Assembly: GCA_902756345.1 (NCBI GenBank)
Contig: CACVQR010000010.1
Coordinates: 124,001 to 188,000 of the forward strand
Direction of reading: 5' to 3'
Length of the DNA: 64,000 bases
Source: Fibrobacter succinogenes
Lineage (GTDB): Bacteria > Fibrobacterota > Fibrobacteria > Fibrobacterales > Fibrobacteraceae
Numbering within the stretch: position 1 is the stretch's first letter; every line of letters starts with the position of its first letter. Below the pieces are notes generated by a model that saw only the letters and a list, made by a program, of their open reading frames with translations, was not told where the DNA came from and did no database searches. Shown piece after piece: positions 29,918 through 55,741 of the stretch. The translations under genes were made by a program, and so were the position numbers.

Positions 29918-31165
29918 CTAGTGAGTCAAGGTGTTGTTAGCATCCATCACACAACGGACTGGCTCAAACATATTTTTTCCACCTGAATTTCCATCAGAGT
30001 CTAAAGATTGCGAAACAGATGAAAAAAAGATGTTCTTTGCATTCTTTTGATTCAACTCAGTAGGCATCCAATAATTAACAAATTCATGGATTCCGGAAAA
30101 ATCCTTCCCTCTAACCCATTCTCCAGTTGGAATAATCGCCATACCAGAACTATTTGAACCAGCATTTTTTTCCCATACAGCCTTAGAACGGAGACTACTA
30201 GAATTTTTTTTAGTATGCGCCCATTCATACTGATTCATAACGTGCCAGCCGTCCGGGCAAATTCCTTGCCAACGGACTACACGAGGATCGCTAACGCTCT
30301 TAACCGCATCGGCAAAACTCTTGCAAGCGCTATTGCTATCCACAGCAACAGAATCACAGACCTTGGGCAAATTCATAGCCTCGGCCCAAGTGTAAAGACC
30401 GCCAAAGTGATTGTCGCAGAACCATTCATCGTCTACGTAGCACAATTTTTCTGTCACTTTGTCGTCAAATTTCGTTGTTCCACCCAATACCATTTTACCG
30501 TAATTCAAGTTTTCGGCCATCACATAGAAGGTATCCCTACCCTTACCATCCTCGGAACGCCAAATAAACTCAACATACTTGTACTTGTGACTATCTCGAG
30601 GGTCTTCAAACTCTAGATATTCCCCGCTGTAGCCAGCAAAAAGGCTATCTAAATTGGGGTGTTCCTTATTTTTTTTGATTGCAGCGAGAGAATCTCGAAT
30701 GTAGGAACTAATTATCGAATCTGTGTCCCAACGTCCATTTCTGCATGTTGCAAAAACTAAGTCTCCTCTGTCAAATATAGCGGTATCCCCCTCATCACAA
30801 ATATAGAATACGAATTCGCTACTACTCGACTCAACCACAGACGAGCTACTATTCTTGCCGCTTACGGAACTAGAGGACTTCTTTTCTGTTACAGAAGAAC
30901 TGGATTTTTTAGAATCTTTCTGAGAAGACGAAGATGCGTCTTTATCTTTACCCGAAGAACCGTTGTTGTCATCGCTACTCGACGAGATTTCACCGATTGG
31001 ATCGGGAGCGGAGCTACTAGATTCATCGCCACATGCAACGAGCAGGGCTAGGAGAACGGACAGAGCCAATAACATGCGAAGCGAATGCCGCGGCAGGCTG
31101 CTTGCAGACTGACATGGCTGAGCTGATGCTGTTATGCGCTTGCGCAAAACGTTAAAAATCTTCAC
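29918..31165 (-). CDS. FISUMP-domain lipoprotein 2
   Basis: 415-aa paralogue of the lipoprotein at 11.5 kb. The start is GTG at 31165 (VKIFNVL), five bases behind GGAGGT, in the same context as locus 1. Signal peptide with an unusually long n-region (1-30), hydrophobic core, lipobox LVAC with Cys45, then GDES. Ser-rich linker with Lys/Asp (about 50-125). FISUMP domain: YLEFEDPRDSHKYKYV, ENLNYGKMVLGG, WFCDNHFGGLYTWAEAMN, CPDGWHVMNQYEW, PVRCVMD at the end. Surface-exposed location is inferred from the lipobox. It lies 102 bp downstream of an Rpn-type gene and upstream of a conserved 3' flank. Confidence 0.92.
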   Translation of the reverse strand: MKIFNVLRKRITASAQPCQSASSLPRHSLRMLLALSVLLALLVACGDESSSSAPDPIGEISSSSDDNNGSSGKDKDASSSSQKDSKKSSSSVTEKKSSSSVSGKNSSSSVVESSSSEFVFYICDEGDTAIFDRGDLVFATCRNGRWDTDSIISSYIRDSLAAIKKNKEHPNLDSLFAGYSGEYLEFEDPRDSHKYKYVEFIWRSEDGKGRDTFYVMAENLNYGKMVLGGTTKFDDKVTEKLCYVDDEWFCDNHFGGLYTWAEAMNLPKVCDSVAVDSNSACKSFADAVKSVSDPRVVRWQGICPDGWHVMNQYEWAHTKKNSSSLRSKAVWEKNAGSNSSGMAIIPTGEWVRGKDFSGIHEFVNYWMPTELNQKNAKNIFFSSVSQSLDSDGNSGGKNMFEPVRCVMDANNTLTH

Positions 31166-50519: not shown

Positions 50520-51143
50520 ATGACGTTTTCGACCCTATTTACTATCGTAATGGCCCTCATCTTTGCGCGCATTTTTTGGCTAAAAATCAAGGATGTGAGC
50601 ATGAAAAGCGAATCCTTTAAGCAGCTTCCGGCCAAAGACCAGCTTTCTGTCTTGAAAGAATGCCTTTTGAACAATCCGACCGAAACAAACCTGAAAAATC
50701 TGAAAGAGTTTTCCCAGAAACAAGGTGTCGAATTGGACATCGAATCTTATAGGCCGTTCATCAAAAAGCAGCAGGAACTAACCCGCCGAAAGGACGCCCT
50801 TGCCGAAGACAACGAACTCTTTACCGCTGAGGCCGAATGGATCGACCAGATTTCGCCCATGGAATTTGAAGAGGCCAAACTCGCCAAGCAAGAAAACCGG
50901 TTTGAGGACTATATTCTGCATTCGCTCGAAGGCGTTGCAAGGCTTTACTCGGATCGGGCCATTTTAAGCGAACTGGACTCCCTAGTTCAAGACTACCCTA
51001 AAGCCAAGGTACTCGCCCAAGGGTACCGCGACCTCATGGAATTGCGTGACCAAAGCGGAGCAGACGACGAATCGCTCAAAAAATTGCGTGCCGCCAAGGA
51101 ATCTTGGGAAAAAGAACTCTTGCAAGTGGATATTGAACAGTGA
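50520..51143 (+). CDS. Membrane-anchored helical protein of unknown function
   Basis: 207 aa, not recognised. An N-terminal TM helix (TFSTLFTIVMALIFARIFWL) is followed by a charged, mostly helical cytoplasmic part (KDQLSVLKECLLNNPTETNL, KQQELTRRKDALAED, EEAKLAKQENRFEDYILHSL), with TPR-like character in places. No Shine-Dalgarno; a TAAATAAT box 13 bases before the ATG hints at a leaderless message. Its TGA overlaps the GTG of topB, so the two are translationally coupled, but a functional link is only inferred. Confidence 0.75.
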   Translation: MTFSTLFTIVMALIFARIFWLKIKDVSMKSESFKQLPAKDQLSVLKECLLNNPTETNLKNLKEFSQKQGVELDIESYRPFIKKQQELTRRKDALAEDNELFTAEAEWIDQISPMEFEEAKLAKQENRFEDYILHSLEGVARLYSDRAILSELDSLVQDYPKAKVLAQGYRDLMELRDQSGADDESLKKLRAAKESWEKELLQVDIEQ

Positions 51144-53956
51144 TCCTACTTGTCGCCGAAAAACCGTCTGTCGCAAACCAACACTACCGCCCTATGCTGG
51201 AGCGGTTGGAAGGGGAAAAATTCACCCAAGGCGACGGATGCCTGATTGGCAAGAACCATTGCATCACCTGGTGCGTAGGTCACCTGATTACCCTTGCGCC
51301 GTTAGACGCTTACCCCGGTTTTGAAGGCGGCTGGCGACTTTCGAATTTGCCCCTGCTCCCAGAAAAATTCAAGCTCATGGAAATCGAGAGCACCAAGAAA
51401 CAGCTGAATGTGGTGCGGCAGATGATGGAGCAAGCAGACGTGCTGGTGAACGGCGCGGATGCCGGCCGCGAAGGTAACTTGATTTTTGACTTGGTGCTCG
51501 ACTACACGCCCTCTTTTAAGCAAAAGACCATCAAGCGCCTATGGGTGAACAGCTACGTGGCCAAGGACTTGGACAAGGCCTGGAAGAACCTAGAAGACGC
51601 TACCCAGCGCGTGAATTTAAGCTATGCAGCCCGCTTAAGACAGCGAGCCGACTGGATGGTGGGACTGAACGCGACACGCGCCTACACGCTCACAGCAGGG
51701 CGCGGCAAGATGATTTCGGTGGGGCGCGTGCAGACTCCGACCCTAAACCTGATTGTAGAACGCGACACCATCGTAGAACAATTCAAGGAACTGTTCTACT
51801 ACAGCGTCGTGGGCACATGGAAAGGGTTCCAGGCACAATATGTCAAACGCGAAGAAGACACCAAAGGCGAAGCAAATCTTAAAGTCGCGGTTTTTGAAAA
51901 AGAAACGGAAGCGAATGCGGTTGTAGCGCGATGCGTCCCTCCTGCCGAAGCTGCTATAGCAAAAATCGATAACCAGCAAAAGAAGCAATTTCCGCAGAAG
52001 CCTTTTGACCTGACCGAACTCCAGAAAGAGGGCAACAAGCGTTTTAAATACAGCGCCCAGCAAGTTTTGGATTGCGCGCAGAACCTGTACGAAAAGAAAC
52101 TGCTCACCTACCCACGTACCGATTCGCAGTACCTGCCCGACACCATGAAGCAAGAGGCATTCGCCCTCGCACAGAAATTGGCAACACCCGAGCAGCAAAA
52201 GGTTTTCCGTTCTTTCGATGAAAATTTCGTCTTCATCAATTCGAGCAAGGTGACCGACCACTTTGCCATTATCCCCACCGGCGAAGCTCCGAACGATTTG
52301 CCCGAAATGGAGCAGAAGATTTACGACCTGGCCAAGGAACGCTTTGTGCAGGCGTGGCTGAAGCCGTACGTGTGGGATGAAATGGAGGTGACATTGCAAA
52401 GCAATGTCATCCTGAGCGAAGCATCAGCGAAGTCGAAGGATCCAGATTTATTCCGATTAAAGCTCAAGCGCAACGAAGATTTGGGATTCCGCGCACTTGT
52501 GAAGGAAGAAAAGAAAAAGACTAGCAAGAAGAAAGGAGATTCCCGCTCGGAGGCGGGAATGACAAGTGCAGGTGACGAGGGCAAGGGCGACAGCGATGAA
52601 ATCACGAACCTGGTAGAAGTTTTCCCGGAATGGGCTGTTGGCGAACACGCGCCTTTTGACAGCGTAGAATTGCAAAAGAAAAAGAAGAGCAAGCCCAAGT
52701 ACTATACCGAGGCGACTCTTTTGGCCGCAATGAAAACCGCCGGCAAGCAGATCGAAAACGAGGAACTTGCCGAAGCCATGAAGGACCGCGGCCTAGGTAC
52801 GCCGGCAACGCAAGCAGGCATTATCGAGACTCTCAAGAAGCGCGGCTTTATCGAAGCGCAAAAGAATTATCTGGTGAGTACAGAGCGCGGACGCGAAGTG
52901 ATCGCCTTGATGGATGAAAAAGTCAAGTCACCCGAAATGACCGGCGAATGGGAATACAAACTTTCGCAGGTCGAAAAGGGCGAGCTTCAACCGGCTGAAT
53001 TCCGCGACGGAATCGTTGAATACGTGAAGCAGCTGTTCGCCGATTTACATGCGCGATACGGCTGCCAGTTCGAGCGCGAAACCGCAACCGAAAGCATTCC
53101 ATGCCCCAAGTGCGGGAGCGCGCTCGAAGTAGCCCCCTGGGGCTACGTGTGCCCCAAGACCGAATGTGGATTCCGATTCGGGCACACTGTGGCAGGCAAA
53201 ATGCTTTCTCATTCTGAAACGAAGACCTTGCTTGCCGAAGGCCATGTAGGCCCGCTTTCTGGTTTCAAGAGCAAGAAAGGCACCGAATTCTCGGCAAAAC
53301 TTTCGGTTGACAAAGATTTCAACATCCAGTTTGAATTCGAAAGCGACGGCAAGTTCCACGGGCAAAAAACAGAATACAAGTGCCCGCTCTGCGGCGAGCC
53401 CCTCGAAGAAAACAAGAACGCCCTATTCTGCACCAATGCTACCGATGGCGTCGACTGCAAATTCACGCTATTCAAGACCGTCGCAGGCCACACGCTTACC
53501 GTCGCCGAAATAAACGAACTCTTTACCAATGGCGAAACACCGCTGATTCAAGATTTCAAGAGCAAGAAAGGCTCTGATTTTGCCGCTCGCCTCAAATGGG
53601 GCGAAGGCGCCGACAAGGGCCGCGCTGTTTTTGAATTCGCTCGCAGGAACCTCCCCTGCCCCGTTTGCGGAGACCAATTGCGTTTTCGCACCGGGACATC
53701 GAACCAAGGCAATGGCGAAGCGAATCACGCCGCTTACGTGTGCATGAACCCGCAATGTGGTTTTGGAATTCCGCAAGTATTCTATCAGCGCAAACTCACC
53801 GACGACGAAGTCGAAGGATTGCTCAAGAACAAATTCACGCCGGTCCTCGAGCCGTTCAAAAAGAACGATACGACCTTCCGTGCAGCACTTGAAATCCGCG
53901 ACGGCGGCAAGCTCGCCTTCAACAAATTAACCGTCGAAGTCATCAATCAAAAATAA
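51140..53956 (+). CDS. topB: Type IA DNA topoisomerase (topoisomerase III) with zinc-finger tail
   Basis: 938 aa. GTG start at 51140 overlapping the previous stop. Toprim domain: MILLVAEKPSVANQ, ADVLVNGADAGREGNLIFD. Cleavage domain: ISVGRVQTPTL and the active-site tyrosine in LLTYPRTDSQYLP (near 323). RGLGTPATQAGIIETL is canonical. Three C-terminal Cys4 units: CPKCGSALEVAPWGYVC, CPLCGEPLEENKNALFC and CPVCGDQLRFRTG..YVCMNPQC. The stretch around 415-495 is not conserved in type IA enzymes and contains two dispersed DNA repeats translated in frame. Role: decatenation and relaxation of negative supercoils with recombination helicases. Confidence 0.94.
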   Translation: MILLVAEKPSVANQHYRPMLERLEGEKFTQGDGCLIGKNHCITWCVGHLITLAPLDAYPGFEGGWRLSNLPLLPEKFKLMEIESTKKQLNVVRQMMEQADVLVNGADAGREGNLIFDLVLDYTPSFKQKTIKRLWVNSYVAKDLDKAWKNLEDATQRVNLSYAARLRQRADWMVGLNATRAYTLTAGRGKMISVGRVQTPTLNLIVERDTIVEQFKELFYYSVVGTWKGFQAQYVKREEDTKGEANLKVAVFEKETEANAVVARCVPPAEAAIAKIDNQQKKQFPQKPFDLTELQKEGNKRFKYSAQQVLDCAQNLYEKKLLTYPRTDSQYLPDTMKQEAFALAQKLATPEQQKVFRSFDENFVFINSSKVTDHFAIIPTGEAPNDLPEMEQKIYDLAKERFVQAWLKPYVWDEMEVTLQSNVILSEASAKSKDPDLFRLKLKRNEDLGFRALVKEEKKKTSKKKGDSRSEAGMTSAGDEGKGDSDEITNLVEVFPEWAVGEHAPFDSVELQKKKKSKPKYYTEATLLAAMKTAGKQIENEELAEAMKDRGLGTPATQAGIIETLKKRGFIEAQKNYLVSTERGREVIALMDEKVKSPEMTGEWEYKLSQVEKGELQPAEFRDGIVEYVKQLFADLHARYGCQFERETATESIPCPKCGSALEVAPWGYVCPKTECGFRFGHTVAGKMLSHSETKTLLAEGHVGPLSGFKSKKGTEFSAKLSVDKDFNIQFEFESDGKFHGQKTEYKCPLCGEPLEENKNALFCTNATDGVDCKFTLFKTVAGHTLTVAEINELFTNGETPLIQDFKSKKGSDFAARLKWGEGADKGRAVFEFARRNLPCPVCGDQLRFRTGTSNQGNGEANHAAYVCMNPQCGFGIPQVFYQRKLTDDEVEGLLKNKFTPVLEPFKKNDTTFRAALEIRDGGKLAFNKLTVEVINQK
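52391..52443 (+). repeat. In-frame dispersed repeat within topB (VILSEA type)
   Basis: The palindrome ACATTGC-aaa-GCAATGT (52391-52407) runs into GTCATCCTGAGCGAAGC..GCGAAGTCGAAGGATCC (52406-52443). The second part is a well-known intergenic repeat pattern in many bacteria. It encodes NVILSEASAKSKDP in TopB without a stop or frameshift. Confidence 0.8.
52535..52564 (+). repeat. In-frame dispersed repeat within topB (ATTCCCGC type)
   Basis: GGAGATTCCCGC-tcggag-GCGGGAATGACA, a hairpin with 8-bp arms that belongs to the common GATTCCCGC...GCGGGAATGAC repeat pattern. It encodes GDSRSEAGMTS. It lies 91 bp after the first in-frame repeat. Confidence 0.8.
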
Positions 53957-53957
53957 A

Positions 53958-54180
53958 CCGAGCCGCAGCAATGCTTGCACGGGCATGGCCGAGCCGAAGA
54001 ATTTGCTGTAAGACTAACACATAAGACGAGATTCTTACTCTTGTAAAAAGACTAACTCGTAAGGCGAGAGACGCGGACAAGCCAAAGGCTTGTACATGAC
54101 CGAGCCCCAGAACAGGCGTAGAAAAGGCCGTAAGGCGAGCGCAGCGGCGGCAAACAAGTTTGCCGACATTGCCGAGCCGA
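53958..54180. repeat. Cluster of three palindromic elements with constant flanks and variable cores
   Basis: Unit B (54061-54106): AAGGCGAG-agacGCGG, core ACAAGCC-aaa-GGCTTGT (54077-54093), ACATGACCGAGCC. Unit C (54132-54177): AAGGCGAG-cgcaGCGG, core CGGCAAAC-aa-GTTTGCCG (54148-54165), ACATTGCCGAGCC. The flanks match base for base except a few positions; the cores share nothing but being palindromes. Unit A (53958-53999), CCGAGCCGCAG...GGCATGGCCGAGCCGAAG, is a more degenerate relative. The gap 53957-54445 has no gene. Confidence 0.75.
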
Positions 54181-54181
54181 A

Positions 54182-54229
54182 GGCCTTTCTTTTTTCATTG
54201 ACCATCCGGTCAATGAAAAAAGAAAGGCC
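54182..54229. repeat. Perfect 22-bp-arm palindrome
   Basis: Arms 54182-54203 and 54208-54229 with loop ATCC; arm ends are GGCCTTTC and CATTGACC. It starts two bases after unit C of the element cluster. Its right arm overlaps the left arm of the terminator at 54223-54248, so the two hairpins are mutually exclusive in RNA. Confidence 0.85.
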
Positions 54230-54445: not shown

Positions 54446-55741
54446 TTACTCTTCGCGGAAAATGATCTTGCACTTCGGTACGAAGCGGAATCCACCGCGA
54501 CGATGGCGTTCGATTTCAAAGAACTTCTTCACGCCTTCGGACGGATGTTCCGGATCGTCGGAGCCGTTGATATGAGCAATCACGCGGTTCAAGCGGCTTT
54601 CGAAGTTCGGACGCAGCGGGTCCATGCAAATAGACGGATCGCGCTTGAATTCACGGTTTTCAAACTCTTCACGACCAGTTGCACTGTATTCGCGCAGCAA
54701 GTTGCGAAGAATTCGAGCAGGCACGTTACGCATCAAGTGCTTGTTGTTCACCGAAATAGAATCGTCGCTCTTGTAGTAGATGATTGTCACGGAGTCGTTC
54801 ATGGCTTCAAGCAACTGTTCCTGGGCTTTCTGGATGGGTTCCCATGAATCGAATTCCTGCTTGACGACCGCACTCATAAGCTTGTTGAACGGTTCCGGAG
54901 CCACCACATTGGCCTTATAATCAAAGTAGACCACGCTAGCCGGTGCGCCGTAATAACAACCCTTCTGAATCAGGACTGCACCAACCTTTTCGTCAATGAC
55001 ATCTTCCGTGGCACGAATGCAGGCCATCTTCTTTTCGGCTTCAAATTCCCATTCGAGACCATATTCGGCAAGGCAATCGCCAAAGGTCTTATATTCGCCC
55101 ACTTGGCGGCCATTCACAAACACAAAGCCATCGCGAACTTCGGCTGTAGCACGATTTTCAAGAGCTTCGACAAAAGAGGTCTGGCAAGCCTTATATTCAA
55201 TTTTTTCGTAGCGAGGCGTATTCAGGAGAATTGCTCCGATCTGCACCAAGCCGTTGAACCAGCGCATGGGGTTCGTAATCAGCATACCCGGGGAGTCAAA
55301 CCGGTAGGTGAAGTATTCCTTGCGGAAACCGTCGACCAGTTCACGGCGGAGGAACTTCGCATTGGAAAGCAGCGGATAACGCTTCGGAATAATATCAAGA
55401 CAGAGTTGACGGACGTCTTCAGTTGCATAGAACTGCGAAACATACGGAAGGTAAGAACGAAGCACGCTACGAGCGGGAATCGCTTCGAAAGTGGCGCAAC
55501 GGTCCATAATGCGCTGTACGAATTCGTCCGGATTTTCGCCACGTTCATAGAGCCAGTTTACCACATTGTTCATCATAAGACGGTGAACACTTTCATCCAC
55601 GAACGAATCTTCGAAGTAGATGTCGTTTAGCAACTTGACATTGAAACGAGGGTCACGCTTAATGAGAGTCAAGATATCCTTGACAGGATACGAGATGAGC
55701 AACTCAATGTGAGTCAACTGAAGGAATAGGTTAGAAAGCAC
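54446..55741 (-). CDS. Uncharacterised 431-aa protein with a possible C-terminal winged helix
   Basis: GTG start at 55741 behind GAGG at five bases. Not recognised. The first 190 residues are helical (VKDILTLIKRDPRFNVKLLN, YERGENPDEFVQRIMDRC, YVSQFYATEDVRQLCLDIIP). The middle holds beta-rich segments (VRDGFVFVNGRQVGEYKTFG). The last 110 residues (DDSISVNNKHLMRNVPARIL, LLREYSATGREEFENREF, NFESRLNRVIAHI) have the shape of a winged helix like those ending some response regulators. No signal peptide. Divergent from mutL with 110 bp between starts. A regulator is one guess; evidence is thin. Confidence 0.75.
   Translation of the reverse strand: MLSNLFLQLTHIELLISYPVKDILTLIKRDPRFNVKLLNDIYFEDSFVDESVHRLMMNNVVNWLYERGENPDEFVQRIMDRCATFEAIPARSVLRSYLPYVSQFYATEDVRQLCLDIIPKRYPLLSNAKFLRRELVDGFRKEYFTYRFDSPGMLITNPMRWFNGLVQIGAILLNTPRYEKIEYKACQTSFVEALENRATAEVRDGFVFVNGRQVGEYKTFGDCLAEYGLEWEFEAEKKMACIRATEDVIDEKVGAVLIQKGCYYGAPASVVYFDYKANVVAPEPFNKLMSAVVKQEFDSWEPIQKAQEQLLEAMNDSVTIIYYKSDDSISVNNKHLMRNVPARILRNLLREYSATGREEFENREFKRDPSICMDPLRPNFESRLNRVIAHINGSDDPEHPSEGVKKFFEIERHRRGGFRFVPKCKIIFREE

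Follow-up and report, generated by a model that had tools for sequence, protein, structure and literature searches.

Units B and C, two short palindromic units behind a topoisomerase gene of Fibrobacter succinogenes, are members of an extensive family of short elements dispersed through Fibrobacter genomes. The fold of these elements is kept while their Watson-Crick positions vary together, and many sites occupied by an element in one genome are empty in a close relative. On balance, we regard the family as mobile double-hairpin DNA elements, non-coding and about 75-130 bp long, and we lean slightly towards the reading that they act as folded single-stranded DNA, with arms that are re-made by template switching. 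The family bears on the long-standing question of whether hairpins evolve through selected compensatory mutations or whether template switching makes and repairs them.

The window locus and the extent of the family

The window, the whole 64,000-nucleotide stretch analysed, contains the topoisomerase gene (Topoisom_bac and Toprim domains, Pfam PF01131) as an open reading frame at 51140-53956 on the plus strand, and its stop codon TAA (53954-53956) is at the same time the TAA of unit A. Unit A (53953-53998, plus strand), a decayed copy of the first hairpin (H1), scores 25.9 bits with the covariance model R1 and is diverged in the first half of the motif. At 54010-54031 (plus strand), the left part of unit B is repeated directly (AAGACTAACACATAAGACGAGA), with 86% identity to 54048-54069, as a remnant of another unit. 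Units B (54059-54109, 45.3 bits with R1) and C (54130-54181, 51.4 bits) are both H1 hairpins on the plus strand and have the flanks and dyad-symmetric cores that the first-pass annotation had described, ACAAGCC (54077-54083) facing GGCTTGT (54087-54093) in unit B and CGGCAAAC (54148-54155) facing GTTTGCCG (54158-54165) in unit C. The left arm of unit B, CTAACTC, fits the GAGTTAG found 3' of unit B in two relatives (L165, L169) and not the right arm in the window, where unit B looks chimaeric. Unit C is preceded on the plus strand by its left outer arm (AAAGGCC, 54123-54129), which is complementary to 54182-54188 and, in predicted folds, is paired with the right side of the unit; its tandem G·A mismatch sets 54137-54138 against 54174-54175. 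A perfect 22-bp palindrome in the position of the second hairpin (H2) and then a second, terminator-like palindrome follow unit C (together 54182-54229, plus strand), and both arms of these palindromes vary among relatives. Many relatives (L165, L166, L168, L169, L171) have a differing perfect or near-perfect terminal palindrome beside a downstream gene that is 87-99% identical. The array is also adjoined by a 431-aa reading frame without a Pfam match (54446-55741, minus strand), the end of which matches at the DNA level across much of the genus. A further H1 copy (31076-31127, plus strand, 32.5 bits with R1) adjoins, in our reading, the ATG of a minus-strand lipoprotein-like reading frame, and near-copies of it occur at two more places in the genome (L228, L230).

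The pattern AAGGCGAGN{8,34}CCGAGCC occurs twice in the window against 0.00 expected from 100 shuffles. In the whole genome, the strictest flank pattern, that of the first-pass annotation, finds 3 copies, and the longer, looser pattern GCGAGN{10,40}CATNNCCGAGCC finds 11, or none when reversed. The covariance model R1 gives 51 matches at E<=1, which is a lower bound since 150 of 1857 candidates were scored; 48 of the 51 were fetched or located in the window. Sequence conservation is the usual means of recognising small palindromic repeats in bacteria; because the pattern finds 3 copies here and the structure model 51, families in which structure is kept may be missed elsewhere.

A scan of an 84,980-species collection with AAGGCGAG-N-GNN-GCG-N(4-34)-CAT-NN-CCGAGCC returned at least 117 stretches. 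Among the 117 matches listed, 111 carry the titles Fibrobacter, Fibrobacteraceae, Fibrobacterales or Fibrobacteria, two are titled Alloprevotella and Bacteroidales (L142, L152) and have genuine palindromic cores, and four come from other bacteria and have non-palindromic cores (L075, L090, L120, L137). The matches listed hold 137 pattern elements, and 133 were kept, including 3 from the Alloprevotella and Bacteroidales records; the four dropped belong to records titled Aurantimonadaceae, Acidobacteria, Paucibacter and Paraburkholderia, L137 having been removed initially for its non-palindromic core alone. In a search of the phylum, with at most 36 candidates scored per genome, the element was found in 92 of 167 genomes, comprising all 80 Fibrobacter genomes, 12 of 31 others of the family and 0 of the remaining 56. 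The flanks recur far outside this spot, genome-wide and in every Fibrobacter genome searched, contrary to one of the two refuting outcomes that the first-pass annotation had named. A viral collection gave 0 matches that would indicate carriage by phages, and a DNA similarity search with a 236-bp region returned mostly weak fragments.

The copies in L142 (7766-7822) and L152 (4108-4248) score 47-49.5 bits and lie in contigs with 67% and 63% G+C, against 49.4% (sd 3.6) in 99 Fibrobacter-type loci. In both, H1 is followed by a small hairpin, with a C-GCA-G loop in L142 and a C-GAA-G loop in L152, behind which the left arm is repeated; L152 has paired outer arms, which L142 does not clearly have. 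The presence of the element in these Bacteroidales-titled contigs may reflect transfer or older common ancestry. On its other strand, the left arm in L142 reads TATTTTTG, which resembles a Bacteroidota -10 box.

Fold and covariation of the two hairpins

Read on the AAGGCGAG strand, H1 consists of a left arm, (G)TAA, GGC, GA, G, a bulge, GNN, GCG, the core hairpin, CAT, NNC, C, GA, GCC, 2-3 bases and a right arm, after which H2 usually follows; elements also stand in arrays. The earlier proposal that symmetry is kept while sequence is not, unlike REP and ERIC elements with their conserved stems, was borne out when genomes were searched with the pattern and the cores were listed. Among the matches listed, the 133 elements hold 102 distinct cores, which do not reduce to a few families, and the core arms are Watson-Crick complementary at 594 of 720 positions, compared with 351.8 (sd 12.8, maximum 401) in 1000 shuffles in which right arms were dealt among cores of equal length. 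The further statement that the cores have no sequence in common held in part: they are diverse but biased, with lengths of 16, 20 and 23 dominating and with CTTG as the loop of 57 of the 112 distinct even-length cores. TTTA follows with 16, against 4 for CAAG and 0 for TAAA, the complements of these two loops, and this asymmetry identifies the AAGGCGAG strand as the folding strand.

The flanks had been taken as constant and the letters between them and the core as free, and both views need revision. Three of these letters pair (GNN...NNC), the triplets being complementary in 128 of 133 elements and in ten combinations; unit B of the window (GAC/GAC) is one of the five exceptions. The flanks themselves covary, and helix positions are variable within the genome of the window too, where GGC/GCC is also seen as GCC/GGC, GCT/AGC and AGC/GCT, the G-C pair beside the G·A pairs also as A-T, and GCG/CAT also as GCA/TAT. 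In an alignment of 49 of the 54 core-16 sequences, 97.7% of cells are paired, and the covariation score is 0.486, against 0.121 for shuffles and 0.035-0.074 for slid partners.

Set within these variable helices is a fixed module composed of a tandem G·A in the context 5'-YGAR-3'/5'-YGAR-3', one bulged base, and a G·T plus a C·A mismatch. The four mismatches are near-invariant across 169 elements (G·A in 164, A·G in 165, G·T in 156 and C·A in 158), a set drawn from 49 and 137 model matches after 17 had been removed as sequence duplicates, as the weakest or for flank indels; the model search of pattern loci covered 99 of 117 loci. Sheared tandem G·A pairs, in DNA as well as in RNA, form preferentially where two 5'-YGAR-3' stretches face each other.

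The variable outer stem of H1 is built with the neighbouring sequence, and this belongs to the host at several sites. Its mean length, measured for the 123 of 133 elements with enough flank (103 distinct left arms), is 5.83 bp, against 3.31±0.11 in 200 shuffles. An H2 stem of at least 6 bp is present in 108 of 167 elements, against 12 of 168 shuffled sequences. There are 94 distinct H2 hairpins, 47 of them with triloops, and these are GNA in 33 of the 47, including 31 of the form C-GNA-G, an unusually stable DNA loop. A second type of hairpin element, in which a variable palindrome is framed by GGTTATGCCATA and CTGCGTCATAACCTTGCACAC, was seen at L196, L197, L018 and L019 of the same genome with two core variants; at L196 it is found within the right side of an H1 element, and a relative (L277) lacks it.

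Movement between relatives and the origin of the arms

At 10 of 14 inspected sites (those at the topoisomerase, prmA, S1-like, valS and aspS genes, and L198, L207, L208, L214 and L217), the element is absent from at least one relative, a proportion that is no rate because the sites were picked for differing spacing; the names prmA, S1-like, valS and aspS are our reading of the translations. L194, L197 and L211 show messier differences, and at L196 the element is common to G044, the difference there being the neighbouring hairpin element of the other type. At the window site, arrays of differing number and order of units occur in L163-L167 and L169, and none in L168 and L170, where the terminal palindrome lies within a few tens of bases of the gene end. 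At the ends of prmA, the S1-like gene, valS and aspS, the element is lacking in some of nine relatives. Nine further sites were compared, and the cleanest case is L198 against L262 and L263, where an insert of about 75 nt at CAAAT stands between near-identical flanks. The aspS allele counted as empty (L242) may instead be a scar. In L254, at the S1-like gene end of the relative G079, one element seems to lie within the hairpin of a second one. Since numerous sites are unoccupied in close relatives, the family constitutes a natural data set for the evolution of hairpins.

Several of these comparisons show from where the arms derive. At the S1-like gene, aspS, L211 and L214, the unoccupied allele already has the left arm, and what is new is the arm complementary to it; at L207 target sequence recurs in inverted form as the new 5' arm of H2, and at L217 the 3' arm of H2 pre-exists. 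For eight cores that occur with clearly different left arms, the element's own right arm pairs better in 16 of 20 ordered pairs, with 2 ties and 2 losses, and the arms therefore follow the site and not the core. In addition, the loop is inverted (AA/TT) at 3 of the 10 arms with more than one loop, and one of the three is that of unit C, with AA in the genome of the window and TT at the same site in G004. The loop of the terminal palindrome, ATCC in the window and L162, is likewise inverted to GGAT in a relative (L163). Homogenised arms, inverted spacers and enrichment of CTTG loops are features described in reports of template switching (PMC8604942, PMC8794818).

Template switching had been put forward in the first-pass annotation, and it is the best-supported of its ideas, given inverted loops at otherwise identical hairpins, arms that track neighbouring sequence and no clear excess of G·T, although it is not proven. 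The loop inversions are few (three), which weighs against it; some right arms and H2 hairpins recur as subfamilies (GCATTT; GTACTTGAGCG...), so that arms of this kind may have arrived with the element instead of being copied at the site; and the recurrence of identical cores also fits plain copying of a master element. It also counts against this reading that direct repeats flank only a minority of the elements and that some of these are array neighbours, and that unit C folds no less well as RNA than as DNA.

Direct repeats beside the elements measure 3-4 nt at L198, about 10 at the S1-like gene, 14 at L211, 16-19 at prmA, about 20 nt at L207 and about 58 nt at valS, and those scoring at least 12 flank only about 20% of 103 elements, against 0.2% of controls. 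At valS, 45 coding bases form, together with the element, a block that is near-identical in three genomes (0-2 differences in 45 and 0-2 in 104), compared with 20-28 differences in the 300 coding bases before the block and 6-9 in the 43 bases of the displaced native end after the element; nearly all of the differences outside the block lie at third codon positions. The simplest reading is that the occupied valS allele moved between species by homologous recombination via the repeated gene ends. The displaced native end (L199, L248, L259) still encodes IIAKNEAALKELK* although it now lies outside the gene, and its changes are almost only at third positions. Between L211 and L268, the gene-end copies that flank the element (TTTGAT and TTCGAC versions) are swapped between the genome of the window and G044.

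From these comparisons, we infer a route in which the AAGGCGAG strand, single-stranded during replication or repair, would fold and be the acting form of the element. Insertion would occur when a nascent strand switches templates by microhomology, one arm then being copied from the other by fold-back, and stem sequence would be free because symmetry is made and repaired by copying. Occupied alleles may afterwards also spread through their direct repeats by ordinary homologous recombination, as in the valS case. A protein probably has its site at the conserved mismatches, or these may simply form the nucleus of the fold, and a dedicated enzyme would not be needed. A broader version of this proposal, which we consider tentative and on the doubtful side, holds that the heritable identity of the element is its fold (the tandem G·A, the bulge and the G·T/C·A) and not its sequence. 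The outer and second hairpins would then be re-made from the target by fold-back copying without a transposase of the element's own, halves would be shuffled in arrays, and the element would have crossed between Fibrobacterota and Bacteroidota with its grammar intact.

The main rival, possible but rather unlikely in our estimation, is that the elements are folded single-stranded substrates of a putative recombinase or transposase, in the manner of REP with TnpAREP or attC with IntI; stem letters would be free because the protein reads the mismatches and the bulge. Invariant mismatches and a bulge amid free stems, strand-asymmetric loops, the reshuffled arrays at the window site in relatives and the presence or absence of elements between relatives would all suit such an enzyme. 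However, Y1_Tnp (PF01797) has 0 matches in the genome of the window (G000, 99.2% complete), with 5 of 14 control genomes positive, and a RAYT or IS200-type transposase was rejected on this ground. The attC boxes, RYYYAAC and GTTRRRY, are found at 0 of 169 left and 0 of 169 right element ends. The direct repeats range from about 4 to about 58 bp, unlike the products of fixed-stagger transposition, and insertion by IS200/IS605 elements and integrons is not known to leave a target duplication. A reverse transcriptase was also rejected as mobiliser, PF00078 being found 0 times in this genome and in 18 of 80 genomes of the genus, against 80 of 80 for the element.

A role as structured RNA is less likely still and, in our judgement, improbable. 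Under this explanation the element would be a 3'-UTR stabiliser, a terminator or a small RNA, and its covariation would reflect ordinary selection on RNA. The strong covariation agrees with it, as does the in silico fold of unit C (z of -3.74 as RNA, -2.47 as DNA and -1.41 for the other strand as DNA), and CUUG is also a stable loop in RNA (PMC8794818). The position of elements relative to genes, which were predicted with our own codon-score caller and not with a standard gene finder, speaks on both sides: of the 133 elements, 119 are intergenic, 9 lie inside a predicted gene and 5 overlap one. The TAA of the element is the exact stop codon in 9 of the 62 intergenic cases with the upstream gene on the same strand, which fits a role as RNA, but 48 of the 119 have that gene on the opposite strand, a near-even orientation. 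In 12 of these 48, a start codon lies 17-19 bases from AAGGCGAG, and in 10 of the 12 CTAWATT stands between the element and the start codon on the strand of the gene, a motif that we take to resemble the TAnnTTTG promoter element of Bacteroidota. Because elements set stop codons and adjoin start codons, they rewrite gene ends. An intrinsic terminator was rejected, since T-runs after the element (4 of 168 and 13 of 168) show no excess over those upstream (13 of 168). Further points against RNA are the loops, with GNRA and TNCG once each among 112, the C-GNA-G triloops of H2, and the many sites that are empty in close relatives. Among 2342 helix cells, G·T (47) is about as frequent as A·C (36), and this lack of a clear wobble excess runs against the expectation for selection on RNA, as weak evidence. 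Rfam 15 covariance models above the gathering score match the window solely at a tRNA (19051), and membership of an Rfam structured RNA family was rejected.

The suggestion that each locus is labelled by its core as a unique recognition tag or barcode is very improbable: 102 distinct cores among 133 elements would suit it, but identical cores occur at several sites, eight of them at unrelated sites with different arms and one at three places in the same genome (L198, L205, L213), and loops and composition are strongly biased.

Relation to known hairpin elements

No report of such a repeat in Fibrobacter was found in search listings of the open-access literature, where the string CATTGCGAG led to unrelated papers. 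Membership of the REP, attC, MITE and Rfam groups breaks down in each case at one or more of the features compared. Like REP and BIME sequences served by TnpAREP (RAYT), the elements are short intergenic palindromes in arrays, with a strand-specific fold and a mismatch bulge (PMC8266576). Unlike REP, their stem sequence is not conserved (102 distinct cores in 133), no Y1_Tnp gene accompanies them in the genome of the window, and the place of the GTAG-type tetranucleotide 5' of the hairpin is taken by two variable model columns and then AA before GGC. Integron attC sites likewise conserve structure over sequence and have an unpaired spacer, an extrahelical base and a variable terminal stem (PMC8946536), but identification as attC was rejected for want of the boxes, and the units of the window array are too closely spaced for cassette genes. 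A MITE of a DDE transposon was excluded because the repeats, which vary between 3-4 nt (L198) and about 58 nt (valS), are no fixed-length target duplication.

Hairpins attributed to template switching and quasipalindrome correction show the same arm homogenisation, spacer inversion and CTTG enrichment (PMC8604942, PMC8794818). Those are local mutations at existing hairpins, whereas the process proposed for the Fibrobacter family would be bound up with an element that is dispersed and polymorphic and has a fixed mismatch module.

The anatomically nearest system is the mitochondrial double-hairpin element. Such elements of Allomyces and others, together with the repetitive hairpins of sponges, are likewise small, non-coding, intergenic and different between close relatives, and the mechanism of their mobility is described as unsettled (PMC2800124, PMC5910586). 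The Fibrobacter family shares with them two adjacent hairpins in which structure is kept and sequence varies, H1 being present by construction of the search, as well as presence or absence between close relatives at 10 of the 14 inspected sites, and the likeness is one of anatomy. It differs in having direct repeats, which the Allomyces elements lack according to PMC2800124, in being bacterial, and in carrying an invariant mismatch module in H1.
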